64,000 bases of DNA, taken from assembly GCF_008065115.1 (NCBI RefSeq), contig NZ_CP042913.1, forward strand, positions 5,529,257-5,593,256. Reading direction: 5' to 3'. This document shows, one piece after another, positions 1 through 20,510 of this stretch. The notes under the pieces were generated by a model. It searched no databases. It was given only the letters and a program-made list of their open reading frames with translations, and was not told the DNA's origin. The stretch's first letter is position 1, and the number at the start of each line of letters is the position of its first letter. Source of the stretch: Bythopirellula goksoeyrii. Its GTDB lineage: Bacteria; Planctomycetota; Planctomycetia; Pirellulales; Lacipirellulaceae. Position numbers and translations under genes: made by a program.

Positions 1-1798
1 GCTTGTCGAGAATCTGGCCCGTCGCAAATGCTTCACCAGGTTCGAGAATATTGCGATCTCGCATATCGTAGGCATCGATGCCAACCTTCTCGGCGAGCCG
101 GTCGAGCAATCCTTCGATCGCAAACGCCGCCTGATTTGCACCAAACCCTCGCATCGCGCCACAGGGAGGGTTGTTCGTGTAGACGGCCAGTGACTCCATG
201 TCGACTGCCGGCACACGGTAGGGACCGGTACAATGGCCACCGGCCCGTTCGAGAACCTTGGCACCGACCGACGCATAGGCCCCCTTGTCGCCGATAATCC
301 GCGCCTGCACGGCAGTGATGTGCCCCTCGGAATCGCAACCGACCTTGTAATCCAATTCAATCGGATGCCGCTTGGGATGAATCCGAAAACTTTCAGGACG
401 CGTAAGTGTCAACTTCACGGGGCGACCTACCAACCATGCCATCAATGCCGTCTGGGCTTGAATCGACATGTCTTCCTTGCCCCCAAACGCGCCACCGTTG
501 CTCACGAGTTCAACTTGTACGCGTGACGGATCAATCCCCAGCACAGAAGAAATCTGACGCTGATCGTCAAACACTCCTTGGCCCTGAGTGTAAACAAACA
601 GTGAGCGAGCCGGGTCGTCCTCGACCCCGGTCGGGGCGCCATTCGGGGAGCCAGTCGGGGCGGGGGACCGCCCGGCTCGCTCATCGGTGGGGATCACCAA
701 ACACGCTTCCGGCTCGAGGAATAAATGTTCAATTCGCTGGGTGACGTAAGAGTCCTCAATAATAAACGCCGAGTTTCGGAACCCCTCCTCGATATCTCCC
801 CGCTTGAGCGACGATTTACTCAGCAAGTTCGACTCTAAATGAGGATGCACTCGTGGAGCATCTGGCTCAAGTGCCGCGCGGGGACTTGTTACCGGCTCGA
901 GAACTTCGTATTCGATGTCAATCAATTCCGCAGCACGGCGCGCTAATCGTTGATTCTCCGCAACCACTCCTGCAATCACATCTCCCGTGCACCGAGTCAC
1001 ATCACCTATGCCGACAAAGACGGGCCAATCTTTGGCAATGAGACCTACCAAGGGATCGCCCGGCACATCGGCAGCAGTTACCACGCGATGGACGCCAGCA
1101 AGGTCAAGCGCGCGACTGGCATCAATGGACAGGATCTTGGCACGGGGATGATCGGTCAGCCGCACCGCTCCGTAGAGCATGTCTGGCACAGTCATGTCGT
1201 CGATAAACTTGCGATCCCCTAACACGGCGTCGTGACCCGTAAAGCGCGGCAGGTTGGTCCCCACCTTGCCCGATAAATCCGCCGCCGTCGGCTCGGGTAG
1301 TTTTTCACCACGGCGAAGCTTGGCATATTGCTCGATGCTATCGACGATCTGGGTATAGCCCGTACAGCGACAGAGGTGTGGCTTAAGAGCCGTGGCGATT
1401 TCTTCTCGCGATGGTTCGGGATTCTTGTCGCATAAACCCACACCCCGCATGGCCATACCGGGAATACAGAATCCACACTGCACACCGCCGCATTGCACAA
1501 AGGAATCGGCTATCTGCTGGCGGTGTTGCTCGTCGAGTCCTTCGAGCGTGGTGATCGATTTGCCAGCAGCCTTAACGGGTTTGATGGCGCATGATAGCAC
1601 CGGCTTGTCGTCCATCAGAATCGTGCAGCAACCACATTGTGCCTGGGGTTGGCAGCCATTCTTGGGAGAGGTGATCCCCAGATAGTCGCGCAGCACATCC
1701 AACAGGGTCAGCTCATCATCCGCAGGAAGCTGAACTTCGACGTCGGCCCCATTGACCTGACAAGCGAGCGTGAGAGAGTTTTCGGTGACAGTAGCCAC
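1..1798 (-). CDS. xdhD: xdhD-like fused [2Fe-2S]/molybdopterin hydroxylase (partial)
   Basis: Molybdenum hydroxylase of the xanthine dehydrogenase family in which the small Fe-S domain and the large molybdopterin domain are one chain, as in XdhD and the 'selenium-dependent xanthine dehydrogenase' family. Seen by translating the reverse strand: two [2Fe-2S] sites (Cys49, Cys55, Cys57/58 and Cys70; then Cys108, Cys111, Cys143 and Cys145 in CRCTGY), a hammerhead domain from about residue 170, then GGAFGGKEDM and RGFGANQAAF molybdopterin motifs. There is no FAD domain, so electrons must leave by another partner. The start is GTG at 1798 with a strong AGGGAGG ribosome site nine bases upstream. The gene runs off the left edge after about 599 codons. 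Residues of about 373-399 are encoded by an inserted palindromic repeat. It is divergent from ygeY and opens a purine-degradation region. Substrate (hypoxanthine, xanthine or another purine) cannot be told from sequence. Confidence 0.9.
   Translation of the reverse strand, partial: MATVTENSLTLACQVNGADVEVQLPADDELTLLDVLRDYLGITSPKNGCQPQAQCGCCTILMDDKPVLSCAIKPVKAAGKSITTLEGLDEQHRQQIADSFVQCGGVQCGFCIPGMAMRGVGLCDKNPEPSREEIATALKPHLCRCTGYTQIVDSIEQYAKLRRGEKLPEPTAADLSGKVGTNLPRFTGHDAVLGDRKFIDDMTVPDMLYGAVRLTDHPRAKILSIDASRALDLAGVHRVVTAADVPGDPLVGLIAKDWPVFVGIGDVTRCTGDVIAGVVAENQRLARRAAELIDIEYEVLEPVTSPRAALEPDAPRVHPHLESNLLSKSSLKRGDIEEGFRNSAFIIEDSYVTQRIEHLFLEPEACLVIPTDERAGRSPAPTGSPNGAPTGVEDDPARSLFVYTQGQGVFDDQRQISSVLGIDPSRVQVELVSNGGAFGGKEDMSIQAQTALMAWLVGRPVKLTLTRPESFRIHPKRHPIELDYKVGCDSEGHITAVQARIIGDKGAYASVGAKVLERAGGHCTGPYRVPAVDMESLAVYTNNPPCGAMRGFGANQAAFAIEGLLDRLAEKVGIDAYDMRDRNILEPGEAFATGQILDK
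602..683. repeat. Family A palindromic repeat inserted in frame in xdhD
   Basis: An 82-base element bounded by exact 13-base inverted repeats (TGAGCGAGCCGGG at 602-614 and its complement at 671-683). The same ends occur between genes at 36637-36713 and, as half copies, at 47425 and 50592. Here it lies inside the xdhD-like coding sequence and is read through without a stop, adding a Pro/Gly/Ala-rich stretch between VIPTD and LFVYTQGQGV. Confidence 0.8.
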
Positions 1799-2032: not shown

Positions 2033-3298
2033 ATGAAAAATAAAAAATCCTACCTTGACGCTGCTAAAAAGTACGAAAAACAGATGGTCCGCTTCCTGCG
2101 AGACCTCATTGCCATCCCCAGCGAATCGGCCGAAGAGGGTCAGGTCATCGCACGCATTCGGCAAGAAATGGAAGCCACCGGGGCTTTTGATAAGATTTGG
2201 ACCGACAAACTCGGGAATCTCTTGGGCCAAGTTGGCAAACCGGGAAAAGGCAAGAAGCTCATCGCGATTGATGCCCATGTCGACACGGTCGGTGTGGGAA
2301 ACCGCGACGAGTGGCAACACGATCCCTACAAGGGCAAGGTCGCCGATGGCAAAGTATGGGGCCGCGGCGCGGGCGACCAGGAAGGGGCGATCCCCGCCAT
2401 GGTCTATGCCGCCAAGATCATGCGCGACCTCAAAGTCGATCTCTCCGAATATTATCTGCTGCTCACCTGCACGGTGATGGAAGAAGATTGCGACGGGCTC
2501 TGCTGGCAGTATATCGTCCAGGAAGAAAAAATCCGGCCCGACGTGGTAGTGATCACCGACTCCACGAATTGCACCATCTTGCGTGGCCAGCGTGGGCGTA
2601 TGGAAATCGGCGTCACCTGCGACGGCAAGTCGTGCCATGGTTCGATGCCTGAGAAAGGTGACAATGCCGTCTACAAAATCACCAAGGTGGTCCGCGAGAT
2701 CGAGGCCCTCAACGAGCGATTGCACCGCGATGAATTCCTCGGCAAAGGGACAATCACGGTCAGCTACATCGACTGCAAGACCCCTAGCCTCTGCGCGGTC
2801 CCCGGTCAGGCATACATCCATCTCGATCGGCGCCTCACGGTTGGCGATACCAAGAAGTCCGCCGTCGCCGAAGTGAAAGACGCGATCAAGCGGGCCGGAG
2901 TTAAGGGGAAGGTTGAAGTGCTCCGTTACGCCCAACCCAGTTACACCGGTCTCGTCTACGAAACCGAAAAATACTTTCCCACTTGGTGCTTTGACGAAGA
3001 ATCGCCCCAAGTTCAAGCCGCGATCAAGACTCATCGCGATGTGTTGGGGAAAGCGCCGCTTGTGCATCGTTGGACCTTCAGCACCAATGCCGTCTCGATT
3101 GCCGGCATGTACGATATTCCTTGCGTCGGATTTGGTCCTGCCCCCGAGAATGTCGCCCACACCGTGAACGATTCTGTGCCGATTCAACACATGGTCGACT
3201 GCGCCGCATTCTATGCCGCCTTTGGCCAAAGCTACTGCGACCTCGCCGCGGGTCGGCCCAACGATACCAACATGACATTCAAACGGAAGAAATCATAA
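2033..3298 (+). CDS. ygeY: YgeY-type M20 family hydrolase
   Basis: Metallo-amidohydrolase of the M20 peptidase/deacylase superfamily, closest to the YgeY group found with selenium-linked purine genes; in that context it is expected to cut an amide in a ring-opened purine product rather than a peptide. Zinc ligands are visible: His82 and Asp84 in DAHVDT, the bridging Asp115 in GRGAGDQEGA, catalytic Glu150-Glu151 in VMEEDCDG, and a C-terminal His in ENVAHTVNDS. Length 421 residues is normal. It follows the divergent xdhD-like gene after 234 bases and precedes ygeW, from which it is now separated by an inverted-repeat cassette. No good ribosome site precedes the ATG. A 420-codon open frame on the opposite strand is a coding shadow. 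Function within the pathway is inferred from context. Confidence 0.9.
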   Translation: MKNKKSYLDAAKKYEKQMVRFLRDLIAIPSESAEEGQVIARIRQEMEATGAFDKIWTDKLGNLLGQVGKPGKGKKLIAIDAHVDTVGVGNRDEWQHDPYKGKVADGKVWGRGAGDQEGAIPAMVYAAKIMRDLKVDLSEYYLLLTCTVMEEDCDGLCWQYIVQEEKIRPDVVVITDSTNCTILRGQRGRMEIGVTCDGKSCHGSMPEKGDNAVYKITKVVREIEALNERLHRDEFLGKGTITVSYIDCKTPSLCAVPGQAYIHLDRRLTVGDTKKSAVAEVKDAIKRAGVKGKVEVLRYAQPSYTGLVYETEKYFPTWCFDEESPQVQAAIKTHRDVLGKAPLVHRWTFSTNAVSIAGMYDIPCVGFGPAPENVAHTVNDSVPIQHMVDCAAFYAAFGQSYCDLAAGRPNDTNMTFKRKKS

Positions 3299-3762: not shown

Positions 3763-3805
3763 AATCAACAACTCCTACAATGCATAAGAATAGAAAGTGA
3801 GATTC

Positions 3806-4837
3806 ATGGCAAACCTTAAAGGCCGCGACTATATCGAGACCAACGACCTCACCCGCGATGAGCTCGACTTGCTGTTGGATACGACGACCGAACTCAAAGA
3901 AAAATTCCACCGGGGTGAACCAACGCAGCTACTCCCCCATCAAACGGCATTCTTGCTGTTCTTCGACAAATCGACCCGCACCCGTAATGCCTTTGAAGCC
4001 GGCATGACGCAACTTGGCGGGCATGCCCATTTTCTTGATGCCGACGTCACCCAGATCAGCCACGGCGAGACTCCTGCCGACACCGGCAAGATCCTCTCCT
4101 CCATGGGACACGGTATCTGCATCCGCCACGACCTGGTTCTCAACCAAGGCAACCGCTATATGCGTGAGATGGCGGAAGCCTCCGATGTGCCGATCATTAA
4201 TATGCAGTGCGACGTCGATCACCCCACACAAACACTGGCCGATCTGCAAACTCTCCGCGAACATTTTGGCACCGATTTGGCCGGCAAAAAGATAGCCGTA
4301 AGTTGGGCGTTCGCCCCATCCTATGCCAAACCTTTGAGTGTTCCCCAAGGCCTAATCACATTGATGACCCGTTATGGCATGAACGTAACGCTCGCTCATC
4401 CGCCAGGATACAACCTTGTGGGTCGGACATTGGAGGCTGCCAAAGCGAACGCGTCCGGGTCGGGAGGCTCATTTGAGATCGTTGACGACATGGACGCCGC
4501 GTTTGAGGACGCTGACATTGTCTACCCCAAGAGTTGGGGCGTCTACGATCTCATGCTTGCCCGCCAGAACGCAAATACCAAAGAAGAAATTGCTGAGAAC
4601 CAACAAGAATGCCTTGCTATGAACGCGAAGTACAAAGACTGGATTTGCGATGAACGCCGCATGAAGCTCGCCAAGAAGTCGGCCGTCTACATGCACTGCC
4701 TTCCTGCTGATCGTGGCTCGGAAGTAACCGATGCCGTCATCGACGGCCCCCAGTCGATTGTCTTCCCCGAAGCCGAAAACCGTCTCCACACCGCCAAGGC
4801 GATCATGTCCTGCTCAATGCGCGAGCGGCCGTTTTAA
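3806..4837 (+). CDS. ygeW: YgeW-type knotted carbamoyltransferase
   Basis: Member of the aspartate/ornithine carbamoyltransferase superfamily, in the YgeW branch. The carbamoyl-phosphate site is seen as DKSTRTRNAFE (residues 54-64), HPTQTLAD (139-146) and HCLPADRGSEV near residue 300. The natural acceptor of YgeW is not settled; the carbamate kinase just downstream suggests it works in the phosphorolytic direction, yielding carbamoyl phosphate from a ureido compound made from purine. The ATG at 3806 is preferred to a GTG at 3797; both lack a strong ribosome site. Length is 343 residues, somewhat shorter than the E. coli protein. A palindromic repeat lies between it and the carbamate kinase. 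Confidence 0.9.
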   Translation: MANLKGRDYIETNDLTRDELDLLLDTTTELKEKFHRGEPTQLLPHQTAFLLFFDKSTRTRNAFEAGMTQLGGHAHFLDADVTQISHGETPADTGKILSSMGHGICIRHDLVLNQGNRYMREMAEASDVPIINMQCDVDHPTQTLADLQTLREHFGTDLAGKKIAVSWAFAPSYAKPLSVPQGLITLMTRYGMNVTLAHPPGYNLVGRTLEAAKANASGSGGSFEIVDDMDAAFEDADIVYPKSWGVYDLMLARQNANTKEEIAENQQECLAMNAKYKDWICDERRMKLAKKSAVYMHCLPADRGSEVTDAVIDGPQSIVFPEAENRLHTAKAIMSCSMRERPF

Positions 4838-4916: not shown

Positions 4917-4934
4917 AAAGGAATTCGATTCTTG

Positions 4935-5894
4935 ATGTCCATCCCACCACAACAACTGGTGATCGCACTTGGGGGCAACGCAATTAGTGTCCCCGGCGAA
5001 CAGGGCAATATCGACGAACAGTTCGCCCACACTCGCCAGACAGCAAGCATTCTCGCCGACGCAATTGCTGCCGGCTTTCGCCCGATCCTCACTCACGGCA
5101 ACGGTCCGCAAGTCGGCAACATCCTCCGACGTGTGGAACTTGCCCGACATGAACTCTACACAATTCCTTTAGAACTCTGTGTCGCGGACACGCAAGCCGG
5201 CATGGGCTACATGATCGCTCAATGTCTGATGAATGAATTGGCCGTACGTGGGCAACCTCGCCAGGTAACCACTCTCGTGACCTCAGTAGTAGTCGATGAG
5301 AATGATCCTGCATTCGACAATCCAACCAAGCCTATCGGCCCACGGATGGATCGCGTTGTCGCTGAAGCACATCGTGACAATGACGGCTGGAAAGTGCGCG
5401 AACTCGAAGATGGTGGCTTTCGTCGCATCGTCTCCTCGCCCCGCCCTAGAGATATTCTAGAATTTCCTATTATTCGCCAATTGGTCGACGCCGAGGAACT
5501 GGTGATCTGCTGTGGTGGAGGAGGCATTCCCGTCTGTCGCAACGCCACAGGTCAATTGAGTGGTGCTGCTGCGGTAATCGACAAAGATCTTACTTCGTCG
5601 CTACTGGCCCGCGAACTTGGCGTAGGCACCCTGGTGATTCTCACTGGTGTGGAACACGTGTGCCTCAACTTCGGTAAGCCAAATGAAATGCCACTCAGAG
5701 AAGTATCCACCGCCGAGGCACAAGCCTATCTTGCTGCAGGACATTTTGGCTCGGGTTCGATGGGCCCCAAAATCGAAGCCGCGATAGATTTCGTCACCAA
5801 TTCCGCTCATCCCAACCCCGTTACCTTCATTGGCCATCTCGACAAGTTCACAGAACTCCTGGCAGGAACCAGTGGCACGCGCGTTACCCGTTAG
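4935..5894 (+). CDS. yqeA: Carbamate kinase (YqeA/ArcC type)
   Basis: Carbamate kinase: moves phosphate from carbamoyl phosphate to ADP, giving ATP, CO2 and ammonia. Amino-acid-kinase motifs are clear: ALGGNAI near the start, HGNGPQVGN, a CGGGGIPV glycine loop, VIDKDLTSSLLA (catalytic Lys/Asp) and GSMGPKIEAA near the C-terminus. The 319-residue length is typical. ATG at 4935 has AAAGGAA about ten bases upstream; a TTG directly before it is less likely. It follows ygeW, and the pair forms an ATP-yielding end to ureido-compound breakdown, as in the E. coli ygeW-yqeA neighbourhood. It is convergent with the PEP-CTERM gene downstream; an 8-base stem (5926-5933 with 5948-5955) lies at the junction. 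Confidence 0.92.
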   Translation: MSIPPQQLVIALGGNAISVPGEQGNIDEQFAHTRQTASILADAIAAGFRPILTHGNGPQVGNILRRVELARHELYTIPLELCVADTQAGMGYMIAQCLMNELAVRGQPRQVTTLVTSVVVDENDPAFDNPTKPIGPRMDRVVAEAHRDNDGWKVRELEDGGFRRIVSSPRPRDILEFPIIRQLVDAEELVICCGGGGIPVCRNATGQLSGAAAVIDKDLTSSLLARELGVGTLVILTGVEHVCLNFGKPNEMPLREVSTAEAQAYLAAGHFGSGSMGPKIEAAIDFVTNSAHPNPVTFIGHLDKFTELLAGTSGTRVTR

Positions 5895-8576: not shown

Positions 8577-9884
8577 TCACATTCGCGACCATAATTCGCC
8601 TGCCTGAGCGGCTGCATCAGCACGAAGAGCTCGTTCGTCGCACGAAACGACCTCCCCCCCTCGCAAACACCAGCGCCCATCGATCATGACATCGCGGACG
8701 AATTCTGGCCCCAGTGCATAGAGAAAATGTCCTGCCAGATTGTCGGTCGTCAGCGGAGTAGCTGGGCGATAACCAGTGAGTACCAGATCGGCCGCGGCGC
8801 CCACACCTAAACTTCCCAGGGTGATTCCCAAGGCCCGAGAGGCCAACCGTGCCGATTCCGCCAGAAAGCCTAGCGACTTACCGAATGGCAAAGACAACTG
8901 AGCATCGTGACTCTTAAATTCCGCCACGCGTGCTTCTCGCCACATATCCGCCCCGATGCCATCGGTCCCCAACACTACCGGCATTGTCGCTGAAACGACT
9001 GGCGTATATCCGACTCCATTGTTCATATTCGAACTAGGATTGTGAGCTAAATGCAAATAGTCTTTATGCTCCCCCAATCTCGTAAATTCCTCCGCCGACA
9101 AATGCGTACCGTGCCCAAAGATAGTACCAGGAATCTCAAGGAGCCCCACCCGCTCGAACCGCTCCATCAATCCGCAACCAAATTTCTCCTGGGTAATCCG
9201 TTCATCACAGGGATCTTCAGCGATGTGGATATGCACCCCGGTATCCAACTCGCGAGCCAGCCGAACACAACCGACGAATGATTCCTCTTCTAAAGTAAAA
9301 CTGGCATGTGCCCCCACCAGAACAGAGAATCGATGATTTTTCCTACTGCTCAATTCCCTTGCATACCGAGACGTCTCATCCAATCCTTCACGGGCTTCGG
9401 TGTCTCGGTTGCGGTCGGTCACTTCATAGCACAACACACCCCGACAACCCACTGAAGCAATTCCCGCCTCCAGTGCGGAGAGACTCCCCGCGATGCAGTT
9501 GGGGGAAGCATGGTGATCGACGAGCGTCGTCGTGCCGCAACGTAGAGCGGCCAGTGCTCCCACGGTGCCGCTAGCGGTGACGCTCTTGAAGTTATGTGCC
9601 CGATCAAGCCGCCACCAGATGAGTTCTAGTATCTCCAGAAAGTTGGTCGGCTGCCGTGGGGGCGCTGGCATGCCAGCAGCAAGAGATGAATAGAGATGTG
9701 TGTGCCCATTCACAAGCCCCGGCATCAACACGGCACCTCCGCAATCGACAATCTCATCGTCCTGTTGCAATGTGAGATTCCGCCCCACGGACGCAATCCG
9801 GCCATCGGATACGCGCAGATCCCCCTGTCGAACCATCGGTGGATCGAGCTCGACCAGCATCGCGTCGCGAAAAAGCGTCGACAT
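8577..9884 (-). CDS. ssnA: SsnA-type amidohydrolase
   Basis: Metal-dependent amidohydrolase/deaminase (435 residues) of the SsnA group, related to guanine deaminase and TrzN-type hydrolases. Metal ligands are visible: HTH in NGHTHLYSS, His in HIHIAEDP, His in GHGTHLS and Asp in GTDGIGADM. SsnA is one of the enzymes found with ygfK and xdhD in purine-utilisation clusters and is thought to hydrolyse a purine-derived ring. The ATG overlaps the stop of the upstream PLP gene (TAATG), indicating translational coupling, which settles this start over a longer upstream frame. The exact substrate is unknown. Confidence 0.88.
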   Translation of the reverse strand: MSTLFRDAMLVELDPPMVRQGDLRVSDGRIASVGRNLTLQQDDEIVDCGGAVLMPGLVNGHTHLYSSLAAGMPAPPRQPTNFLEILELIWWRLDRAHNFKSVTASGTVGALAALRCGTTTLVDHHASPNCIAGSLSALEAGIASVGCRGVLCYEVTDRNRDTEAREGLDETSRYARELSSRKNHRFSVLVGAHASFTLEEESFVGCVRLARELDTGVHIHIAEDPCDERITQEKFGCGLMERFERVGLLEIPGTIFGHGTHLSAEEFTRLGEHKDYLHLAHNPSSNMNNGVGYTPVVSATMPVVLGTDGIGADMWREARVAEFKSHDAQLSLPFGKSLGFLAESARLASRALGITLGSLGVGAAADLVLTGYRPATPLTTDNLAGHFLYALGPEFVRDVMIDGRWCLRGGEVVSCDERALRADAAAQAGELWSRM

Positions 9885-11335
9885 TAGAGCAACTCCAGCA
9901 CACCCGTTTGCCGATTGAAATCTTCGATCTGACGATCCCACTCCGTCGCCTGCTCGAAAGTCTTCTGCCAAAACTCGGGATCCCACAACTCACGGAGTTC
10001 CTCGGCACTACGCCCCTGCTGCTCGACCCAAGTGAAATACTTAAAGTTGTGCAATGCCTTGCGATCCTGATAAGTCAATTCACGAACATAGTCGGTCGCT
10101 ATCCCTTCAAGATACCGCTCACGATCCAAAGCAGCCCGCTCTGCCGTGTAGGCACCACACTCTTCGGTGAGTTCCTCAAGTCGACTTGAGTACAGCCCTG
10201 CCGAGTCAGTCAAGCACGTAAAGATGACGTCTTTGCCTGTCATGTCAAAGTGCTTGGCAGTCTTGATCGCAGCCACCAGATTACAAATCCCCGAAATGCC
10301 GACTTGTGGTAATTTCTCGATGAAGTCCCCTGATAGGTCTTTTTGTAAGACCTGTTGGCCCGCATCTTCATTGAACAACCGCATGAGCGACATGCACTGC
10401 TGATCGTCAATCGCGGCGATCATGTCGGTGTTGCGAACATTGTGAATCCACGGCACGTGCTTGTCGCCGATTCCCTCGATGCGATGTCCTCCGAACCCAA
10501 ACTGGTAGAGCGTCGGACATTGCTGGGCCTCGGTCGCCACCACCCGCATCTCCGGATGAAGCGTACGAAGCATATCCCCGGCGGCAATTGTACCCGCGCT
10601 CCCTGTGGCAGACACATAGCCCGCCAGACGCCCCCCATTGGCAACCCGCTCAAACACTTCCTGAATCGCCGCAGCTGTCACATGATAATGCCAACAGGCG
10701 TTGCCAAATTCCTCGAACTGATTGAAGATCACGCAGTCGGGCCGTGTGCGGCGAATCTCCCAGCACTTGTCATAGATTTCCTTCACGTTCGATTCACAAC
10801 CCGGCGTGGCGATCACCTCGGCCCCAATCTCCTTGAGCCACTCAAACCGTTCGCGGCTCATCCCCTCGGGCAGAATCGCCACGGCCGTGCAGCCCAACAA
10901 CGCCGAATCAAATGCCCCGCCGCGACAATAATTCCCCGTGCTGGGCCAGACCGCCTTTTGCTTTGTCGGATCAAACTCTCCGCTGACAACGCGGGGAATT
11001 AAGCACCCATAGGCCGCCCCCACTTTGTGCGCTCCGGTAGGAAAATACTTCCCCACCAACCCAATGATCCGCGTGTCGACGCCAGTCAAAGCCGAAGGAA
11101 ACTCGACCCAGTTCCCTTCATTGAAGAGTCCTCCCTTGTCGACCGGTTCGTTCTTCCAAGTAATTCGAAACAAGTTCGCAGGATCGACGTCCCACAGACC
11201 CACTTCGCGGAGTCGGCTGGTGATCTTCTCAGGAATCTTCGTCGGATCACGCATCTGGGCAAACGTCGGCAACAAAATCCGCCGCTCCCGAAACCGTTCG
11301 ATCGTCCGCTCTAATACTTTTTTATTGACTTGCAT
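9884..11335 (-). CDS. PLP-dependent fold-type II enzyme (ammonia-lyase/synthase-like)
   Basis: Pyridoxal-phosphate enzyme of the tryptophan synthase beta/cysteine synthase superfamily. The Schiff-base lysine is Lys104 in TGAHKVGAAYG; an asparagine loop is seen in STGNYCRGGAF, and a phosphate-binding glycine loop in SATGSAGTIAAGD. At 483 residues it is longer than YgeX (diaminopropionate ammonia-lyase), with a C-terminal helical extension of about 90 residues ending in acidic and aromatic segments. It is translationally coupled to ssnA (TAATG) and lies downstream of a second PLP enzyme, so it probably acts on a late purine intermediate by eliminating or exchanging an amino group. Substrate not predictable; YgeX equivalence is an inference from position. 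Confidence 0.82.
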   Translation of the reverse strand: MQVNKKVLERTIERFRERRILLPTFAQMRDPTKIPEKITSRLREVGLWDVDPANLFRITWKNEPVDKGGLFNEGNWVEFPSALTGVDTRIIGLVGKYFPTGAHKVGAAYGCLIPRVVSGEFDPTKQKAVWPSTGNYCRGGAFDSALLGCTAVAILPEGMSRERFEWLKEIGAEVIATPGCESNVKEIYDKCWEIRRTRPDCVIFNQFEEFGNACWHYHVTAAAIQEVFERVANGGRLAGYVSATGSAGTIAAGDMLRTLHPEMRVVATEAQQCPTLYQFGFGGHRIEGIGDKHVPWIHNVRNTDMIAAIDDQQCMSLMRLFNEDAGQQVLQKDLSGDFIEKLPQVGISGICNLVAAIKTAKHFDMTGKDVIFTCLTDSAGLYSSRLEELTEECGAYTAERAALDRERYLEGIATDYVRELTYQDRKALHNFKYFTWVEQQGRSAEELRELWDPEFWQKTFEQATEWDRQIEDFNRQTGVLELL

Positions 11336-11490: not shown

Positions 11491-12741
11491 CTACATTGCA
11501 TTTTCCACCGCCGCTTCGACCGAGGTCAGGTCGGGTTTGATACTCAGAGGTTCTCCTCCAGCCCGAATCGAACTGCGGATGTCTTTCAGTCCGCTCCCAG
11601 TAATCATCACTAGCACTGACTCATGGGGTTCAATGATTTTAGCATCGACCGCCTCGACCACTCCTGCCAATGCCGCCGCGGCCGCCGGTTCGGCAAACAC
11701 TCCGTGCCGACCTGCAAGCCGAATAGCCGCCAAAATCTGTTCGTCGCTTACGCAAACTACGCGCCCGTGCGCAGAGTCGAGTGCATTGACCGCTTTACGC
11801 CAGTTCCGCGGCACTTGCACATCGATGCTGTCAGCCATGGTCGTCCCTTCACCAGGCTCGGGAAGAACACCATGCTCCAAAGCATAAGGAATCGGGGCAA
11901 CCTCTTTGGCTTGCACACCTAACAAGCGAGGCAAACGGTCGATCATTCCCAGTGCATGCATTTCGGAGAGTCCTTTCCAAATGCCAGCAATCGTGCAGCC
12001 ATCACCTATGCTCACCGCCACCCAATCCGGCACGCCACCATACGCGGCCACTTGCTCGGCGATCTCAAGCCCGGCTGTCTTTTTCCCTTCCACCAACACA
12101 GGGTTAATCGCGCAGTTGCGATTGTACCAACCAAATTGCTCGCAAGCTGAGGAGCAAAGCTGGTACGCCTGATCGTAGGACCCCTCGACAGAGAACACTC
12201 TCGCCCCGAAGACCAAGAGCTGCGCGAGCTTCGGCTCGGGAGCTGTATGAGGGACAAAGATGTTCGCCTCGATCCCGGCCAATGCCGCATGACAAGCCAG
12301 GCTCGTGGCGGCGTTGCCTGTTGACGCACAGGCGATCGCATTCGCACCAACTTCCATTGCATGGGCCACGCCTACCGAACTTGCCCGATCCTTGAACGAT
12401 GCCGACGGATTGCGCCCTTCGTCCTTCAAGAGCACACGTTCCAAATCAAGTTCTGTGGCCAGTCGCTCGGCATCAACAATCGGCGTCCATCCAACTTGCC
12501 AATCCGTCCGCAATGAAGTTTCTTTCAGCGGCAACAACTCCGCATAGCGCCAATGGTTGTGCTCACGCTTCGAGAGTGGCTTATCGAGCCAAGAGTCGCG
12601 CACCGCTTCTAGATCGTAGCGAAAATCCAGGATTCCTTCTGCCGGTCCACACGTGGGGCATGTCATCCAGACATTTGGCGCATCCGCAGACTGCGGAAAG
12701 TACTCAGCACCGCAATTTACGCAAACCAACTTTTCAATCAT
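11491..12741 (-). CDS. Threonine synthase-like PLP enzyme
   Basis: Fold-type II PLP enzyme with an N-terminal zinc ribbon (Cys7, Cys10, Cys28, Cys31), as in one branch of threonine synthases. Lys117 in NPSASFKDRAS is the Schiff-base lysine; STGNAATSLA and SIGDGCTIAGIWKG form the substrate and phosphate loops. Length 416 residues is normal for this family. The ATG at 12741 (MIEKLVC) is preferred to one 15 bases upstream. It is transcribed with the other PLP gene and ssnA and is divergent from ygfK. No hom or thrB lies nearby, so a catabolic role (a beta-elimination on a diaminopropionate-like or serine-like intermediate) fits the context better than threonine synthesis, but this is inference. 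Confidence 0.82.
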   Translation of the reverse strand: MIEKLVCVNCGAEYFPQSADAPNVWMTCPTCGPAEGILDFRYDLEAVRDSWLDKPLSKREHNHWRYAELLPLKETSLRTDWQVGWTPIVDAERLATELDLERVLLKDEGRNPSASFKDRASSVGVAHAMEVGANAIACASTGNAATSLACHAALAGIEANIFVPHTAPEPKLAQLLVFGARVFSVEGSYDQAYQLCSSACEQFGWYNRNCAINPVLVEGKKTAGLEIAEQVAAYGGVPDWVAVSIGDGCTIAGIWKGLSEMHALGMIDRLPRLLGVQAKEVAPIPYALEHGVLPEPGEGTTMADSIDVQVPRNWRKAVNALDSAHGRVVCVSDEQILAAIRLAGRHGVFAEPAAAAALAGVVEAVDAKIIEPHESVLVMITGSGLKDIRSSIRAGGEPLSIKPDLTSVEAAVENAM

Positions 12742-12891
12742 CGCAGTCCTTCCCACACCGACTCACACGCAAACTTTCAAGTTTGCACTCTAACTCACCA
12801 CCAATCGAGAAGCTAGTACCACGTGAATCTCTGAGTTAGAATCGAGGGGAGTACTCCTGCGGATTCTACTTACTGTTTACAGCTAAGCCCC

Positions 12892-14898
12892 ATGGTCGAT
12901 CTCTATTGCACACCGTTTGTCGAACTCGTCGACCGCATGCGACTGGAGTATGCAAACCGCGCGTCGATATTCGACCTGCCACGGCGAAAGTGGTTTGTCC
13001 CTGCCGCCGATGACGATACGGATCTTTCGGTGCGCTTCCATGGCCAGCTGGCTGGTAACCCCCTCGGCCCAGCATCGGGGCCACAGACCCAAATGGCCCA
13101 GAATCTGGTTCTCTCCTGGCTCGCCGGTTCGCGGATCATGGAACTTAAGACCGTGCAGGTCAATGACGCACTAGAGATTGCCAGGCCTTGCATCGATGCC
13201 ACCAACGTTGGCTACAACATCGAATGGTCCCAGGAACTCAAGGTCCATGAGTCGCTCGATCAATATGTCCAAGGCGCGATGCTCATCCACATGCTCCGCC
13301 ATGCACCTGAGGAGTTTGGCAATCCGTGTGGGGCGACCGACATGGCGGGCGCGATTGGTGAGACCGTTTTCGACATGTCCGTCGGCTACGATTTGGCTGG
13401 CATTCAAACCGAAAAGGTGGTGAATTTCATTCGCGGCATGATGGATGCCACCGAGAGTGTCAATCGCCTCCGCGATCAATTGCCCCATCGTTTGCGCGCC
13501 CTGCGAGACCTCGACTACCCCACCAATTTAAGCCGCAGTATCACACTCTCCACATTCCACGGTTGCCCCGCCGATGAGATTGAAAAGATCTGCGAGTTTC
13601 TTCTCACTGAAATCGGCACCGATGTGATCGTGAAGATGAACCCCCCCATGCTGGGCAAAGAACGGCTCGAACATTTGCTCTACGACGTGATGGGCTACAC
13701 AGAAATCACCGTCCATCCACATGCCTACTCGAGTGGTTTGCTGTATGACGAGTCCATCGCTATGTGCAGTCGTTTGGCGAAGATTGCAGCAGAGCGCGAC
13801 CTCGGCCTCGGGGCAAAATTTTCTAACACGTTGGAAGTCACCAACCATCGCGATTTCTTTCCCGAGAAGGAAGAGGTGATGTACCTCTCCGGCCTGCCAC
13901 TGCATGTAATCACACTCACCCTTGCCCATGAGTTCCGCAAGACCGTAGGGCATGCGATGCCGATCTCTTTCTCGGCGGGCATCGATCGCAAGAATGCCCA
14001 CCAGGCAATCGCCTGTGGATTCATCCCCATCACCACCTGCACCGATCTCTTAAAGGTTGGAGGCTACGGCCGCTTGCCAGCTTATTTCCAGGACCTTCGC
14101 AAGGAGATGGACAAGTGCAACGCCAAGACGCTCGACGACTACCTGCTCGACTGCAGAGGCAACCGCGATGCCGCCGGAGGCGATCCAGTACTTGCCGGTT
14201 TCCTAAACATGGAAGCAATCGTCGCTGAGACGCAGGCCGACCCTCGCTACTACGCCGAGCAAAATCGCACCATCCCCAAGAAAATCGACTCGCACTTGAC
14301 GACGTTCGATTGCATCACCTGCGACAAGTGCATCCCGGTGTGCCCCAACGATGCGAATTTCACTTATGCCGTTGAGGCGGTCGACATCACCTACCGTGAC
14401 CTACAAGTGCACCCTGACAGTACGCTGGTCGAAATCGGCGACGAAAAACCGTTCCGCGTCGAAAAGGCAGAGCAAATTGCCAACTTCGCCGACTACTGCA
14501 ACCACTGCGGCAACTGCGACACCTTCTGCCCCGAATACGATGGCCCCTATCTGATGAAACCCAGTTTCTTCGGCAGTCGAGAAGCGTTTGAAGCTGGTGC
14601 GCCGCATGATGGATTTTACTTGGAACATGAAAATGGAAAGCTATCTCTCCAGGCACGCATCAACGGTGACAAATACAGGCTTACACAAACCAATGACTGC
14701 TACCTCTACAACGATGCCACCATCACGCTGGCGTCTTCGCGGGGAGAATTCACCCTCGCCGCTGACACAAACCCACCAACCAAACCCCACACCATCAACA
14801 TGGGCCGTTTCCACGCCTTGGCGACCTTGCTCAATGGTATCACCTCCGATAATAAAATCCACGCGGTGAACACGCCGCTGGTGGCGGAGAGAAGGTGA
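12892..14898 (+). CDS. ygfK: YgfK-type Fe-S reductase, short form
   Basis: Homologue of YgfK, the 'putative selenate reductase' subunit that always accompanies ssnA and xdhD in purine clusters. The first 460 residues form the dihydropyrimidine/dihydroorotate dehydrogenase-like barrel, with the family motif LSTFHGCPADEIEK; two ferredoxin-type [4Fe-4S] sites follow: Cys474, 477, 480, 484 (CITCDKCIPVCP) and Cys536, 539, 542, 546 (CNHCGNCDTFCP). Usual family length is near 1000 residues because a GltD-like FAD/NAD(P)H domain sits before the Fe-S part. Here the protein is 668 residues and that domain is absent. Electrons may come from the XdhA FAD subunit or a separate reductase. Likely role: reductive dearomatisation of the purine or a ring-cleavage intermediate. 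Confidence 0.88.
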   Translation: MVDLYCTPFVELVDRMRLEYANRASIFDLPRRKWFVPAADDDTDLSVRFHGQLAGNPLGPASGPQTQMAQNLVLSWLAGSRIMELKTVQVNDALEIARPCIDATNVGYNIEWSQELKVHESLDQYVQGAMLIHMLRHAPEEFGNPCGATDMAGAIGETVFDMSVGYDLAGIQTEKVVNFIRGMMDATESVNRLRDQLPHRLRALRDLDYPTNLSRSITLSTFHGCPADEIEKICEFLLTEIGTDVIVKMNPPMLGKERLEHLLYDVMGYTEITVHPHAYSSGLLYDESIAMCSRLAKIAAERDLGLGAKFSNTLEVTNHRDFFPEKEEVMYLSGLPLHVITLTLAHEFRKTVGHAMPISFSAGIDRKNAHQAIACGFIPITTCTDLLKVGGYGRLPAYFQDLRKEMDKCNAKTLDDYLLDCRGNRDAAGGDPVLAGFLNMEAIVAETQADPRYYAEQNRTIPKKIDSHLTTFDCITCDKCIPVCPNDANFTYAVEAVDITYRDLQVHPDSTLVEIGDEKPFRVEKAEQIANFADYCNHCGNCDTFCPEYDGPYLMKPSFFGSREAFEAGAPHDGFYLEHENGKLSLQARINGDKYRLTQTNDCYLYNDATITLASSRGEFTLAADTNPPTKPHTINMGRFHALATLLNGITSDNKIHAVNTPLVAERR

Positions 14899-15599: not shown

Positions 15600-16400
15600 T
15601 CACTTTTTTCCCCGCCACCGATCCCGCTCCTGAATCAACTCCGCCACTACGCTGATGGCAATCTCGCCCGGTTCGTTCGTTCCCAGGGGCAAACCGATCG
15701 GACAGTGAAATGCCTCGGCCTGTTCGCGCGGGATGCCGTCGGCGACAAGTTCCCGCACCAGCACGCCTCGCTTCGCGCGGCTGCCAATGACACCAAGGTA
15801 AGGGAAAGTGCGGCCTTGGCGGAAAATCTCCGCGAGCACGGGGCGGTCGGTGCCGTGGCCCATGGTGATGCATAATACAAACGCATCGCTCGGTAAAGCG
15901 GCGACCTGGGCGGGGAGGTCGTCGGTGCGGATCTTGGTGAGCCGGTCGCGGTCGGCGATCTTGTCTAGCCACTCACTGCGAGAATCGATGCAGCGGGTGT
16001 GACAGTTAATCTGCCCCAGGCAACTTGTCACTGCCGACGCAACGTGGCCGGCTCCGAAGATGACGACCTGCCAATCGCTGTGGTTGTAGGTCTCGAAGAA
16101 CAGTTTAACTACACCACCGCAGGTCATCCCCACGTCGCGCTGCAGGTTCCACTCGACCAGTTGATGCACGGGTGCCTGTCCTGAAGTATCGGCAAGCATC
16201 GCCTGGGCGTGTTGAATCGCCTTGTGCTCTACCTTGCCACCGCCGACGGTGCCTGACGATAAGCCCTCGGTCGTAACCAGCATCTTGCTGCCGGTGTCCT
16301 GCGGAGTGCTGCCGACCGCTTCGACCATGGTCACGCTGACAAACGGTTCGCCAACCCGAGCTAGTTCCGCAAGTCGTTCAACAAAGCCGTGTGGAGCCAT
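15600..16400 (-). CDS. xdhC: XdhC molybdenum cofactor insertion chaperone
   Basis: XdhC family protein (266 residues) that loads sulfurated molybdenum cofactor into xanthine dehydrogenase. Family features: GSTPQDTGSKML near the N-terminus, GTVGGGKVEH, a conserved CGG (GMTCGGVVKLF), and a C-terminal Rossmann domain starting VIFGAGHVA. The start at 16400 (MAPHGF) is chosen because the longer frame reads through an ATTCCGCA-type intergenic repeat. It is the last gene of an xdhA-xdhB-xdhC string on the minus strand. Confidence 0.92.
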   Translation of the reverse strand: MAPHGFVERLAELARVGEPFVSVTMVEAVGSTPQDTGSKMLVTTEGLSSGTVGGGKVEHKAIQHAQAMLADTSGQAPVHQLVEWNLQRDVGMTCGGVVKLFFETYNHSDWQVVIFGAGHVASAVTSCLGQINCHTRCIDSRSEWLDKIADRDRLTKIRTDDLPAQVAALPSDAFVLCITMGHGTDRPVLAEIFRQGRTFPYLGVIGSRAKRGVLVRELVADGIPREQAEAFHCPIGLPLGTNEPGEIAISVVAELIQERDRWRGKK

Positions 16401-16404
16401 AGAT

Positions 16405-16438
16405 GGAATGCGGAATTGGGAGTGCGGATTGCGGAATA
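16405..16438. repeat. ATTCCGCA-type repeat before xdhC
   Basis: Direct iterations of GGAATGCGGAATT / GTGCGGATTGCGGAAT just upstream of the xdhC start. The same words form a large palindrome at 39765-39838. Its reading as protein in the extended XdhC frame is an artefact. Confidence 0.55.
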
Positions 16439-16447
16439 AAATGAAAT

Positions 16448-16508
16448 AGCCGTTGGCGGAAGCCACATGGTTCTACGAGGCGACAACCATTGGCTTCCGC
16501 CAACGGCT
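16448..16508. repeat. Perfect palindrome between xdhB and xdhC
   Basis: 18-base arms AGCCGTTGGCGGAAGCCA (16448-16465) and their exact complement (16491-16508) around a 25-base loop. It lies between the xdhB stop and the xdhC start, so it would fold in the transcript. A half copy (TAGCCGTTGGCG) occurs after the carbamate kinase at 5911. Confidence 0.75.
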
Positions 16509-16525: not shown

Positions 16526-18880
16526 TCACGATTCTAGTCGTGCGGGAACTTCCAAAGTATTTGTCGTTGTATCTTTCTCCAGCGCTGTCATCACACGCAA
16601 AATCTCCTCCCCCGTGGCCGGTGACTTCAGATCAATCTCCGCGCCCGGCTTGACGTAGGAAAGCGCATTTCGCACTGCAGCCCACACCGAGAGCGCCAAC
16701 ATGAGCGGCGGTTCGCCGACGGCCTTGCTGCTGCCAATGTTATGCGTGTTGTCGTGATTGGGGAACATGCGGACGTTGAACTCCGGGGGGATGTCGGTCA
16801 CAGCGGGGATCTTGTACGTCGTTGGCGAATGGGACAGGAGTTCACCCTTCTCATTGTAGGTGAGACACTCGTTCGTGACCCAGCCCATTCCCTGCACAAA
16901 TCCGCCGATGATCTGACCCCGATCCACCCCCGGGTTGATCGACCGGCCAATGTCAATCAAGAGATCCGCCCGCAAGACGCGCATCTCGCCATTAAAGCGA
17001 TCGATGACCACCTCAGCTACAGCCGCCCCCTGGGTGAAATAGAAAAAGGGCGTACCGCGACCCGTCTCGCGATTGAAGTCAATCCCCGGTGTAGCAAAGA
17101 ACCCGCGGGCACCCAAATCAACCCGGTCCCGCCGGGCATCCTCGCACAACTGTTCAAACGGAATCCGCACCTGAGGTCGCCGGTCGTCATGCACGCTCCC
17201 CTCGGCAAAGCAAATATGCTCCGGCGAGGCGACCAGCCCCGACTCACTGTCAGCCAGATGCTCGGCGGCGAAGGTACGCAGGCGGGACTTGATTTCCTGG
17301 CAAGCCACGACTGCAGCGGCCCCATTCAGGTCGGTGCCAGCCGACGCCGCCGTAGGCGAAGTATTGTTGTTCTTCTCTGTGCTGGTTGCCATCATCAACA
17401 CCCGGCGCGGATCAATGGCAAATTCGTCGGCCACCAGTTGCCTAATCTTTACGTTCACCCCCTGCCCCATTTCCGTGGCCCCGGTCGAGACCTGAATCGT
17501 ACCGTCGGTGTAAATATTTACGAGCGAATTGCCTTGGTTGAGAAACTTGGTCGTGAACGAGATGCCAAACTTCATCCCCGTGAGCGCTAGACCGCGCACC
17601 TGCAGGCGCGACTTGGCATTGAAGTCGGCAATCTCTATACGACGTCGCTGGTAATCCGAATCTTCGGCAAGGGTTTCAAAAATCTCCGGCAAGTGATTCT
17701 TGTCGACCACTTGGCCATAGGGGGTCACATTGCGACTGCCAACGCCATAGACATTCGCCCGGCGAATCTCCAGCGCATCAAGGCCCAACTTCTCAGCTAT
17801 CGACTCCAGCACATTCTCGATGACAATCATCCCCTGTGGTCCACCGAAACCTCGAAACGCCGTATTGGGTGGGAGGTTTGTAAAGCACACCTTGCCCGTG
17901 AACTCCACATGCGGCAGGTAATAAGCATTGTCGCCGTGGAGTAGAGTGCGTTCCATCACCGAGGGGGAAAGGTCGGTCGTGGCCCCGCCGTTTGAAAAGT
18001 ACTCACACCGCAATGCCAACAAATGCCCCGCATCGTCGAATCCACACTCCCAACGCGTAAAATATTCGTGTCGCTTGCCGGTGACGCACATGTCGTCGTC
18101 TTTGTTGTATATCACCCGAGCCGCACGGCCAGTCTTCGAGGCAACCAGCGCCGCCATGATGGCGGGAATCGCCGCCTGGGTCTCCTTGCCACCGAACGCT
18201 CCCCCCATTCGCTTGCAGATGCAGACGACTTCGTGTTGACCGAGTCCCAACACCTCAGCGATGACCGCCTGAATCTCGGTTGGATTCTGCGTAGACGAGT
18301 GGACGACAATCTGCCCCTGCTCGCCCGGATAGGCAAGCGCGGCCTGCGATTCAAGGTAAAACTGCTCCTGCCCGCCACTTTTGAAGGTCCCCTGCAAACG
18401 GTGTGGAGCGGAAGTAAGGTTCTCGTCGACACGCCCGCGGGCGATTTTTCGCACAGGTCCCAGAAAGCGATTCTCTTGAATCGCCTGCTCAATGGTCAGC
18501 ACCGGTGTTTTCTCTCGGCATTCAATCTCCACGGCGCGCCGACCAAGTTCCAGGGCCGCAGGCGTCTCCGCCGCTACTACCACTACCGGTTGCCCGACAT
18601 ACATCACCTCCTCACGAGCCAGAAAAGGATCATCGGCGACGATGAGGCCAAAGACATTATGCCCCGCCACGTCCTCAGCCGTGTAGCAAGCCACGACGCC
18701 AGGTGTTTCCAGAGCGGCTTGCACGTCGATCCGCACAATCTCACCACAAGCAACCGGGCTGCCCACAAATCCAACATGCAACTCTCCCACCTGCGCCGGC
18801 ATATCATCAATAAACAAGGCGCTACCGGTAACATGCCCGCGCGCCGAATCATGTGGCAATGGTTTTCCGATGGAGGTCAT
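16526..18880 (-). CDS. xdhB: Xanthine dehydrogenase molybdopterin subunit
   Basis: Large molybdenum-binding subunit of a two-subunit bacterial xanthine dehydrogenase (784 residues, normal length). Motifs: GKPLPHDSARGHVTG at the N-terminus, GGAFGGKETQ, FRGFGGPQGM, GGFVQGMGW, and SKAVGEPPLML whose Glu is the catalytic base. It oxidises hypoxanthine/xanthine to urate at the Mo centre and passes electrons to the Fe-S and FAD centres of XdhA, encoded just upstream. XdhC is downstream. This classical enzyme exists beside the fused XdhD-like hydroxylase in the same region, so two different purine hydroxylases are available. Confidence 0.93.
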   Translation of the reverse strand: MTSIGKPLPHDSARGHVTGSALFIDDMPAQVGELHVGFVGSPVACGEIVRIDVQAALETPGVVACYTAEDVAGHNVFGLIVADDPFLAREEVMYVGQPVVVVAAETPAALELGRRAVEIECREKTPVLTIEQAIQENRFLGPVRKIARGRVDENLTSAPHRLQGTFKSGGQEQFYLESQAALAYPGEQGQIVVHSSTQNPTEIQAVIAEVLGLGQHEVVCICKRMGGAFGGKETQAAIPAIMAALVASKTGRAARVIYNKDDDMCVTGKRHEYFTRWECGFDDAGHLLALRCEYFSNGGATTDLSPSVMERTLLHGDNAYYLPHVEFTGKVCFTNLPPNTAFRGFGGPQGMIVIENVLESIAEKLGLDALEIRRANVYGVGSRNVTPYGQVVDKNHLPEIFETLAEDSDYQRRRIEIADFNAKSRLQVRGLALTGMKFGISFTTKFLNQGNSLVNIYTDGTIQVSTGATEMGQGVNVKIRQLVADEFAIDPRRVLMMATSTEKNNNTSPTAASAGTDLNGAAAVVACQEIKSRLRTFAAEHLADSESGLVASPEHICFAEGSVHDDRRPQVRIPFEQLCEDARRDRVDLGARGFFATPGIDFNRETGRGTPFFYFTQGAAVAEVVIDRFNGEMRVLRADLLIDIGRSINPGVDRGQIIGGFVQGMGWVTNECLTYNEKGELLSHSPTTYKIPAVTDIPPEFNVRMFPNHDNTHNIGSSKAVGEPPLMLALSVWAAVRNALSYVKPGAEIDLKSPATGEEILRVMTALEKDTTTNTLEVPARLES

Positions 18881-19004: not shown

Positions 19005-20510
19005 TCATAACAACACCGCATCCGGTTGATGCTCCAAGTAAAACTTCACGAATACATTCCTGGTTAGCTGCAAGCGATAGTCTTCGCTCCCCCGCACATC
19101 GCTAATTGGCGTCACCTCCGCCACTGCCAGTTCACCCGCCTCTCGCATCGTTGCTTCACTGAATTCACGGCCGACGAGAAAATCTTCCGTATTGCGAGCC
19201 CGCAGCACCGTCGGGCCGACCGCTCCAAATGCCAACGCTGCCTCAGCAATTCTGCTTCCATCGAGTCGAATTCGAATCGCTGCCGTGAACGACGAGATAT
19301 CCAAATCTAGCCGACGCGACACCTTGAACAAACGCAGTAATTCTCCTTCGTCTGGCAATGGCACCGTCACCCGTGTAAGCAGTTCGCCGGGCTGTAGATC
19401 AAACTTCTTGTAGCCTTGGTAAAAATCGTTGATATTCACCGTGCGGCTGCCTTCAGCGGAACGCAACTCCAACTCGGCATCCATCACAAAGTAAAACGGC
19501 AACGAGTCGGCAATCGGTGAAGCATTGATCACGTTGCCCCCCACGGTGCCCATGTTGCGAATCTGCGGCGCCCCAAACACCTTCACAATCTGATAAAACT
19601 CCTCCAACTGCTGGCGGCATAGCGATTCCACTTCCGTCCAGGACGCCCGCGCTCCCATCACAAGCTTTCCATCAACAACTCCCAGCTGCTCCAATTCCTT
19701 CACGCGATTTAAATCCAGAATCGTCTCCGGCAACGCCTGCCCTTTGTTCACGCGCACCCCAATGTCCGTGGCCCCCGCCACGATCATAGACTGCGGCCAT
19801 TCGCGAAGTACCTCAAGTGCGCTGGCCAACGTCACTGGACAAAGAACCCGTGACGCGGCAAACCCCTTTCCTTGGCCATTCGTGGAAATGCTCGCCGGCG
19901 ATGAGAGCTTCTTGAGTAGCGGAGGTGTGGAGTCTTCAATCAATGCGATATCTTCAGCCGAGTGGGCATAGAAATCCTGCAGCATCGGCTCCGAGGGATA
20001 GAGCACATCCATCCGATCGCCTTCGGCAAGTTCCGCCGTGAGCCCCGCTTCGAGAATCGACACATATCCTGTGCAGCGGCACAAGTTCCCGGTGAGACCT
20101 GTCCGCATCGAGTCCGCATCTTTCGAACAATCATTTTCTTGCATGGCCGTCATCGCCATGGCAAATCCTGGTGTGCAGAAGCCACACTGCGAACCGTGGC
20201 AATCGACCAGTGCCTGTTGCACGTCGTTCATGGAGCCTGCCTTGGCAAGTCCTTCCACAGTAACAATGTGCGTCGAATCGAGTTGAAACAAAAACGCGAT
20301 ACAAGAATCGATTGCTTCATAGCGGAGCCCATCTTCATGGACGCGACCTACTAACACCGAACACGCTCCGCAATCCCCCTCACTGCATACAATCTTTGTA
20401 CCAATCTGGCCCAGCTCTCGACGGAGAAAATCCGAGAGCGACATCCGCGCCTGGTGCGCGTGAATTTGGTGACGGACACCATTGATGTAGAGCAATAAGA
20501 AGTCGCGCAT
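19005..20510 (-). CDS. xdhA: Xanthine dehydrogenase FAD/[2Fe-2S] subunit
   Basis: Small subunit (501 residues) with two [2Fe-2S] clusters followed by a FAD domain, the standard XdhA layout. Seen: CSEGDCGACSVL for the first cluster, CGFCTPGFAM and CRCTGYVSIL for the second, then FAD-binding VAGATDIGV, NMGTVGGNVINASPIAD. It takes electrons from XdhB and hands them to NAD+. It leads the xdhA-xdhB-xdhC string. No strong ribosome site precedes the ATG. With YgfK lacking its own FAD/NAD domain, this is the only flavin electron carrier encoded in the purine region. Confidence 0.93.
   Translation of the reverse strand: MRDFLLLYINGVRHQIHAHQARMSLSDFLRRELGQIGTKIVCSEGDCGACSVLVGRVHEDGLRYEAIDSCIAFLFQLDSTHIVTVEGLAKAGSMNDVQQALVDCHGSQCGFCTPGFAMAMTAMQENDCSKDADSMRTGLTGNLCRCTGYVSILEAGLTAELAEGDRMDVLYPSEPMLQDFYAHSAEDIALIEDSTPPLLKKLSSPASISTNGQGKGFAASRVLCPVTLASALEVLREWPQSMIVAGATDIGVRVNKGQALPETILDLNRVKELEQLGVVDGKLVMGARASWTEVESLCRQQLEEFYQIVKVFGAPQIRNMGTVGGNVINASPIADSLPFYFVMDAELELRSAEGSRTVNINDFYQGYKKFDLQPGELLTRVTVPLPDEGELLRLFKVSRRLDLDISSFTAAIRIRLDGSRIAEAALAFGAVGPTVLRARNTEDFLVGREFSEATMREAGELAVAEVTPISDVRGSEDYRLQLTRNVFVKFYLEHQPDAVLL

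Follow-up and report, generated by a model that had tools for sequence, protein, structure and literature searches.

A short form of YgfK without the GltD-like module in Bythopirellula goksoeyrii, a candidate ferredoxin-driven yanthine reductase

Results

The purine gene cluster

The window, the whole 64,000-nucleotide stretch of the B. goksoeyrii genome analysed here, carries a gene for a short YgfK among a set of purine-related genes (Table 1). In the reductive uric-acid pathway described in PMC12507026, XdhD converts urate to yanthine, YgfK reduces yanthine and SsnA performs the opening step, followed by HyuA, YgeW, YgeY, and YgeX. Because genes for YgeY, YgeW, carbamate kinase, SsnA, and a Mo hydroxylase are all present, we regard the window cluster as a version of this pathway. 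No HyuA was detected among the window proteins scanned; HyuA-like genes occur elsewhere in the genome, the best at 35% identity. A classical YgeX beside the short YgfK was not found in the window cluster. The window SsnA scores 354 bits against a model cut-off of 455.5. Interspersed among the purine genes are genes for a GxxExxY protein, two PEP-CTERM proteins, and a PIN-domain protein.

The Mo/2Fe-2S hydroxylase gene extends past the window edge to about position -940, the window holding the 3' part in window coordinates, and is followed outside the window by a MocA-like gene. Its product scores 935 bits against TIGR03311, the model for selenium-dependent xanthine dehydrogenase (cut-off 830.45). 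Pfam identified no FAD_binding_5 domain in this 912-residue protein, and no FAD subunit is encoded adjacent to it. Glu606, the residue proposed to steer E. coli XdhD, lies in an insert lacking from every other protein aligned, namely 32 related Mo hydroxylases, the window one included, as well as 10 XdhB-type proteins, and thus gives no confirmation of the urate reductase assignment.

Table 1. Features of the short YgfK gene and its cluster, in window coordinates
Feature	Position	Strand	Evidence
Mo/2Fe-2S hydroxylase, 912 aa, likely urate reductase (XdhD/XdhAC role), without FAD domain	1..1798	-	TIGR03311
YgeY-type hydrolase	2033..3298	+	PRK13004, 533.9 bits, over cut-off
YgeW-like carbamoyltransferase	3797..4837	+	best NCBIfam model YgeW, 308.9 bits, below cut-off 453
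Carbamate kinase (YqeA role)	4932..5894	+	PRK12352, 313.6 bits, over cut-off 266
SsnA-like amidohydrolase	8577..9986	-	best NCBIfam models SsnA, 374.5 and 354 bits, below cut-offs
CysK-like PLP enzyme, 483 aa	9884..11335	-	PALP
ThrC-like PLP enzyme, 421 aa, divergent from ygfK	11491..12756	-	TIGR00260, 187.4 bits, over cut-off
Short YgfK, predicted FMN-barrel and two [4Fe-4S] sites, without GltD module	12892..14898	+	668 aa, ATG start
Barrel, aa 41-446, predicted dihydroorotate/dihydropyrimidine dehydrogenase FMN-domain fold	13012..14229	+	VIA-align, Foldseek
Two [4Fe-4S] sites, aa 474-484 and 536-546	14311..14529	+	Cys positions; homologue alignment
Beta-rich C-terminal tail, aa 557-668	14560..14895	+	no fold match found
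XdhC-type Mo-cofactor insertion protein	15600..16466	-	TIGR02964, 170 bits, over cut-off
XdhB, Mo subunit of ordinary xanthine dehydrogenase	16526..18880	-	TIGR02965, 918.8 bits, over cut-off
XdhA, 2Fe-2S/FAD subunit of ordinary xanthine dehydrogenase	19005..20510	-	TIGR02963, 454.6 bits (cut-off 467); FAD_binding_5
Four interspersed genes	3339-3725, 5944-7632, 7634-8203, 15203-15595	+, -, -, +	

The short YgfK matches E. coli YgfK in two blocks

The short YgfK frame runs from ATG to stop over 668 codons. By sequence the protein is a YgfK, scoring 395.6 bits (E 3.3e-118) against TIGR03315 without reaching the curated cut-off of 835.3. A preliminary description of this locus had the coordinates, the length, the barrel-like N-terminal half and both Fe-S sites right, and its estimate of about 360 residues fewer than E. 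coli YgfK agrees with the computed difference of 364 from the 1032-residue MG1655 protein. BLASTP aligned a barrel block (residues 8-428 with 9-426 of E. coli YgfK, 36% identity) and a C-terminal block (476-597 with 904-994, 29% identity), and HHalign paired the C-terminal family of the short protein with the E. coli C-terminus at a probability of 99.1. Between the two blocks E. coli YgfK has ~470 residues, from 427 to about 898, that have no counterpart in the short protein, which has ~47 there; extra length in the tail and near the second Fe-S site makes up part of this loss. The absent piece is a GltD-like Fe-S/FAD/NAD(P)H module. The description had equated the missing segment with a GltD-like flavin domain; that module is indeed absent, but the loss also takes the Fer4_20-type Cys region (E. 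coli C455-C511). Cys474/477/480/484 and Cys536/539/542/546 each form a CxxCxxCxxxCP set and are invariant in a 50-row alignment.

The short form is intact and widely conserved

Orthologues from four relatives (86% identity in Bythopirellula polymerisocia, then 69, 68, and 52%) are about equal in length to the window protein. An alignment of these was used to scan genome contigs, which reported 434 relatives, of which the best 80 were kept. Among these, 74 homologues from many phyla were measured from query start to stop codon (to the contig end in one case), leaving out two that were cut (L062, L066), one with a late match start near a contig end (L081), and three that were not picked (L035, L049, L064). 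All 74 fall between 651 and 753 residues, none being long, and both CxxCxxCxxxCP motifs are found in 73 of them; the sole exception, L069, has one complete motif. A tblastn search with E. coli YgfK 427-898 over the window and 20 kb upstream, in any frame, returned only scraps of ~50 residues at E 0.018 or worse, while the controls (the E. coli sequence, the locus of a long planctomycete YgfK and the gltD locus) matched strongly. The orthologue and homologue lengths and the lack of a GltD-like frame nearby practically eliminate a frameshift, an assembly gap or a decayed gene, and the tblastn result rules out a GltD domain placed in another order. Neither of the two findings that the description said would overturn it, a frameshift or gap and a reordered domain, is present at the locus. 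The short YgfK is, on this sequence evidence, an intact and widely conserved form that makes up a broad family.

Long forms of 1094-1177 residues occur in the same phylum (L117-L119, L115, L116). In 392 Planctomycetota genomes, 29 matches were sorted by open frame into 21 short (655-848 residues), five long (1124-1189), and three fragments. A quick tree of 86 short and seven long barrels separates the two forms by a single change with a branch support of 84; as the tree is unrooted, it does not distinguish gain from loss of the GltD module. The long proteins of L115 and L116 branch beside the short clade, and no SsnA lies in the flanks covered. A family search of 398 Pseudomonadota put one over the cut-off, a count that is hard to interpret since GltD-domain proteins match the model.

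Predicted fold and conserved residues

An AlphaFold2 model built from 50 sequences has a pLDDT of 92.2 and a pTM of 0.93. The barrel at 41-446 superposes on DHODH and on DPD 530-933 with VIA Z of 26-28 and rmsd mostly 2.4-2.9 over ~290 residues, and Foldseek with the model placed DPD chains at the top of its list. Residues 41-446 are thus predicted from the model to be an FMN barrel of the dihydroorotate/dihydropyrimidine dehydrogenase type, and FMN is the predicted cofactor. T218, L219, S220, T221, H223, P226, K248, N250, K309, and N312 are identical in at least 97% of 86 short and in 7/7 long YgfK proteins; position 225 is Cys in 81 of the 86 short proteins and Thr in five. Judged by the fold family, these conserved barrel residues would form the active site.

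No solved relative was found in the PDB at E 0.001 with the single protein, a profile gave weak matches only, mostly ferredoxin-type, at E up to 1, and HHalign against a DPD-like protein gave a probability of 6, too weak for use. Searched by themselves, the C-terminal 214 residues had no match in Foldseek (E 0.001), and their VIA Z did not exceed 5.1; for this reason no fold is claimed for the tail.

Neighborhoods of short YgfK genes

The loci of the best 80 of the 434 relatives were surveyed with BLAST thresholds of our own over flanks of up to 10 kb, loci at contig ends included. At least one of SsnA, the FAD-less Mo hydroxylase, YgeW, YgeY, and the 483-residue PLP enzyme is encoded at 55 of these 80 loci, and pathway genes are absent from the other 25, in some cases owing to contig ends. 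The FAD-less Mo hydroxylase was found at 40/80, SsnA at 38/80, YgeW at 28/80, YgeY at 18/80, and HyuA at 3/80; an XDH-type FAD subunit of any kind was found at 13/80 and a GltD-type gene at 1/80. At none of the 40 loci with the FAD-less Mo hydroxylase is the next gene an FAD subunit, although one lies further away at ten. Three loci (L086, L091, L102) carry an FAD-bearing XDH beside the short YgfK and no FAD-less enzyme, and three more (L074, L075, L090) encode separate FeS and FAD subunits nearby; because of these deviations the FAD-less first step is common and not strict.

The FAD subunit does adjoin the Mo protein in E. coli and at three long-YgfK loci of one planctomycete genus, and the contrast with the short loci draws on these two lineages. 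Two further long loci (L115, L116) have no SsnA or other pathway genes, L116 having just an FAD-type XDH subunit, and the sixth (L159) has no XDH gene in the stretch covered.

Among the same best 80 of 434, the CysK-like 483-residue PLP enzyme is encoded at 21 short-YgfK loci and the ThrC-like 421-residue enzyme at 22, and an E. coli-type YgeX exceeds the threshold at one. Another PLP enzyme may perform the last pathway step in short-YgfK clusters. Scans of representatives from ten of the recurrent unassigned-neighbor clusters turned up no shared electron carrier; they comprise a PAS/response regulator, LpxK, a PEP-CTERM protein, a kinase, a secretin, an ABC/AAA ATPase, a cyclase, a symporter, an arginine decarboxylase, and a TPR protein.

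Candidate electron donors in the genome

A separate GltD-like reductase encoded outside the window, which the preliminary description had suggested looking for, was sought genome-wide. One GltD-type gene is present, and it adjoins a 1553-residue ORF of GltB size. Pyr_redox_2 occurs at 21 places in the genome, and one of 12 stretches examined resembles the GltD part of E. coli. The sole GltD-type gene being beside a gltB-sized ORF, a dedicated GltD for YgfK is unlikely in this genome. A 504-residue FAD protein ~5 kb upstream of the window was considered as a partner and rejected as a MerA-like oxidoreductase in another context.

A PFOR of the single-chain type (1771 bits) is also encoded in the genome, as are two more POR_N proteins and small ferredoxin-like ORFs, among them one with 92 residues; from these we conclude that ferredoxin would be available. 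POR_N was found in 47/47 short-YgfK genomes searched; as it is carried by 5/5 long-YgfK genomes too, its presence is compatible with a ferredoxin route and is not proof of one. A PFOR over the cut-off was found in 5/6 YgfK-bearing relatives versus 16/53 others (Fisher p 0.018, kinship ignored). The number of GltD-type matches in the 47 short-YgfK genomes is zero in four, where the genomes may be incomplete, one in nine, and at least two in 34.

Discussion

We propose, at a probability of roughly 0.6, that the short YgfK is a ferredoxin-driven yanthine reductase that works like UacX or PydAc on a YgfK barrel, the donor being suggested by analogy with these enzymes. The built-in NAD(P)H-accepting part is absent, and the protein therefore probably runs on reduced ferredoxin; the weight we give to this donor comes from the genome inventory and the strong precedents of PydAc and UacX. 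The substrate, the FMN, the donor, and the electron path are all inferred. The short YgfK would catalyse the reductive dearomatisation known from E. coli YgfK, taking yanthine (2,8-dioxopurine) to its dihydro form, and the hydrolase SsnA would pull the reduction forward. A small soluble carrier, for which reduced ferredoxin is the likeliest candidate, would deliver electrons directly to the C-terminal [4Fe-4S] pair, from where they would pass on to FMN; the E. coli-type route from NAD(P)H via an internal GltD-like module would be bypassed. The ferredoxin would be reduced by 2-oxoacid:ferredoxin oxidoreductases, and the likely urate reductase of the cluster, the FAD-less Mo/2Fe-2S protein, would probably draw on the same kind of donor.

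Several characterized systems share parts of this arrangement. E. coli YgfK (TIGR03315), the yanthine reductase described in PMC12507026, has in common with the short protein the barrel, the conserved residues, the C-terminal [4Fe-4S] part, and the neighbors SsnA, YgeY, YgeW, and carbamate kinase. It differs in its 427-898 segment (Fer4_20 and FAD/NAD(P)H), and the short protein falls below the cut-off of the family model. C. difficile UacX fills the yanthine reductase role in a reductive urate cluster without an FAD domain, its partner Mo enzyme lacks an FAD subunit as in the window cluster, and ferredoxin is the proposed donor; the UacX assay used reduced methyl viologen (PMC12507026). UacX, however, is a PF01180 (DHO_dh) protein, whereas the short YgfK has no PF01180 match at E 0.001 even though its predicted fold resembles DHODH. 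PydAc of Clostridium chromiireducens, a ferredoxin-dependent dihydropyrimidine dehydrogenase that uses reduced ferredoxin and not NAD(P)H, likewise combines an FMN domain with Fe-S clusters and lacks the FAD/NADPH domain, but it acts on uracil, has two ferredoxin domains with 16 Cys, and belongs to another barrel family (PMC7332683). PreA of E. coli PreTA is also a barrel and Fe-S polypeptide with no NAD(P)H module of its own (PMC7332683); its GltD-like partner is encoded next door, where the short YgfK has none.

The PreT-PreA pair is the model for an alternative in which a separate flavoprotein, a moonlighting GltD or another FAD oxidoreductase, carries NAD(P)H electrons to the short YgfK in trans. 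The many Pyr_redox_2 places in the genome leave room for such a protein, and the 34 of 47 short-YgfK genomes with at least two GltD-type matches make a trans partner possible outside the window's own genome. At L067 a DPD-like protein with a GltD part is encoded head to head with the short YgfK. (This protein, L067:7143-9626 on the minus strand of a Verrucomicrobia contig, has 827 residues; its barrel and Fe-S parts were read by eye.) The location of the single GltD-type gene of the window genome, the one GltD-type gene near a short YgfK among the best 80 of 434 loci, the four short-YgfK genomes without a GltD-type match, incomplete as they may be, and the lack of a recurrent redox partner among the unassigned-neighbor clusters examined all speak against it, and we consider a trans flavoprotein unlikely, at about one chance in six. 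That NAD(P)H itself, or a different carrier such as flavodoxin, reduces the barrel FMN appears quite improbable. The invariant Fe-S cysteines of the 50-row alignment suggest that electrons enter through the Fe-S clusters, and PydAc, whose layout is similar, took no electrons from NAD(P)H (PMC7332683).

The preliminary description had pointed to XdhA, as the only flavin carrier in the cluster, and to an electron route that may be rewired. Inside the window no cluster protein other than XdhA carries FAD, but FMN is the flavin predicted for YgfK itself. The xdhA gene lies 4 kb from ygfK, and an XdhA-XdhB pair immediately precedes the short YgfK in L086 and L091; an FAD-type subunit is nevertheless found at just 13 of the best 80 of 434 loci and is not a conserved neighbor. 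XdhA, moreover, pairs with XdhB, ordinary xanthine dehydrogenase models matching both best, and the close relative G010 keeps YgfK with no XDH genes in the flank covered (in G024 the contig ends there). Feeding of YgfK by XdhA is thus very improbable. The route must still differ from that of E. coli YgfK, as the module is absent, but since the short form is a broad family the rewiring is not peculiar to this cluster. It is also conceivable, with a small probability, that the same barrel acts on a different heterocycle, at least where purine genes are absent, or runs in the reverse direction. The 25 loci without a pathway gene among the best 80 of 434 would fit this, as would the sub-threshold scores of the curated YgfK and SsnA models, while the company of SsnA, YgeY, YgeW, carbamate kinase, and the Mo hydroxylase at the window copy and the barrel residues conserved in common with long YgfK argue for yanthine.

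It was in gut bacteria that the reductive uric-acid pathway was elucidated. The published survey used IPR017700 (SsnA) and IPR017701 (YgfK) and names no Planctomycetota (PMC12507026, section 9). The YgfK and SsnA proteins described here score below the matching NCBIfam cut-offs and would probably be overlooked by the same survey, taking the IPR entries to correspond to these models; the missing Planctomycetota in the SsnA network may likewise reflect window-type SsnA proteins falling below the model cut-off. No description of a YgfK without the FAD domain was found in the open-access (PMC) literature searched.

Taking the observations jointly, we tentatively suggest, at somewhat less than even odds, that the short YgfK marks another branch of the reductive purine pathway, one of very wide phylogenetic spread, found mostly in free-living marine, soil, and sediment bacteria of the Planctomycetota, Sumerlaeota, SAR324, Marinimicrobia, Ignavibacteria, Acidobacteria, and others. 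Ferredoxin, and not NAD(P)H, would commonly drive both the reduction of urate to yanthine and that of yanthine to dihydroyanthine, and this branch would be set apart from the gut-type enzyme by one ancient event, either the gain or the loss of the GltD module. The reductive purine pathway has hardly been sought so far in free-living bacteria that carry the short YgfK. If this reading is true, the pathway would be environmentally widespread and would exist in a ferredoxin-tied form, which would bear on the settings and the energy cost of purine nitrogen recycling in the absence of oxygen.
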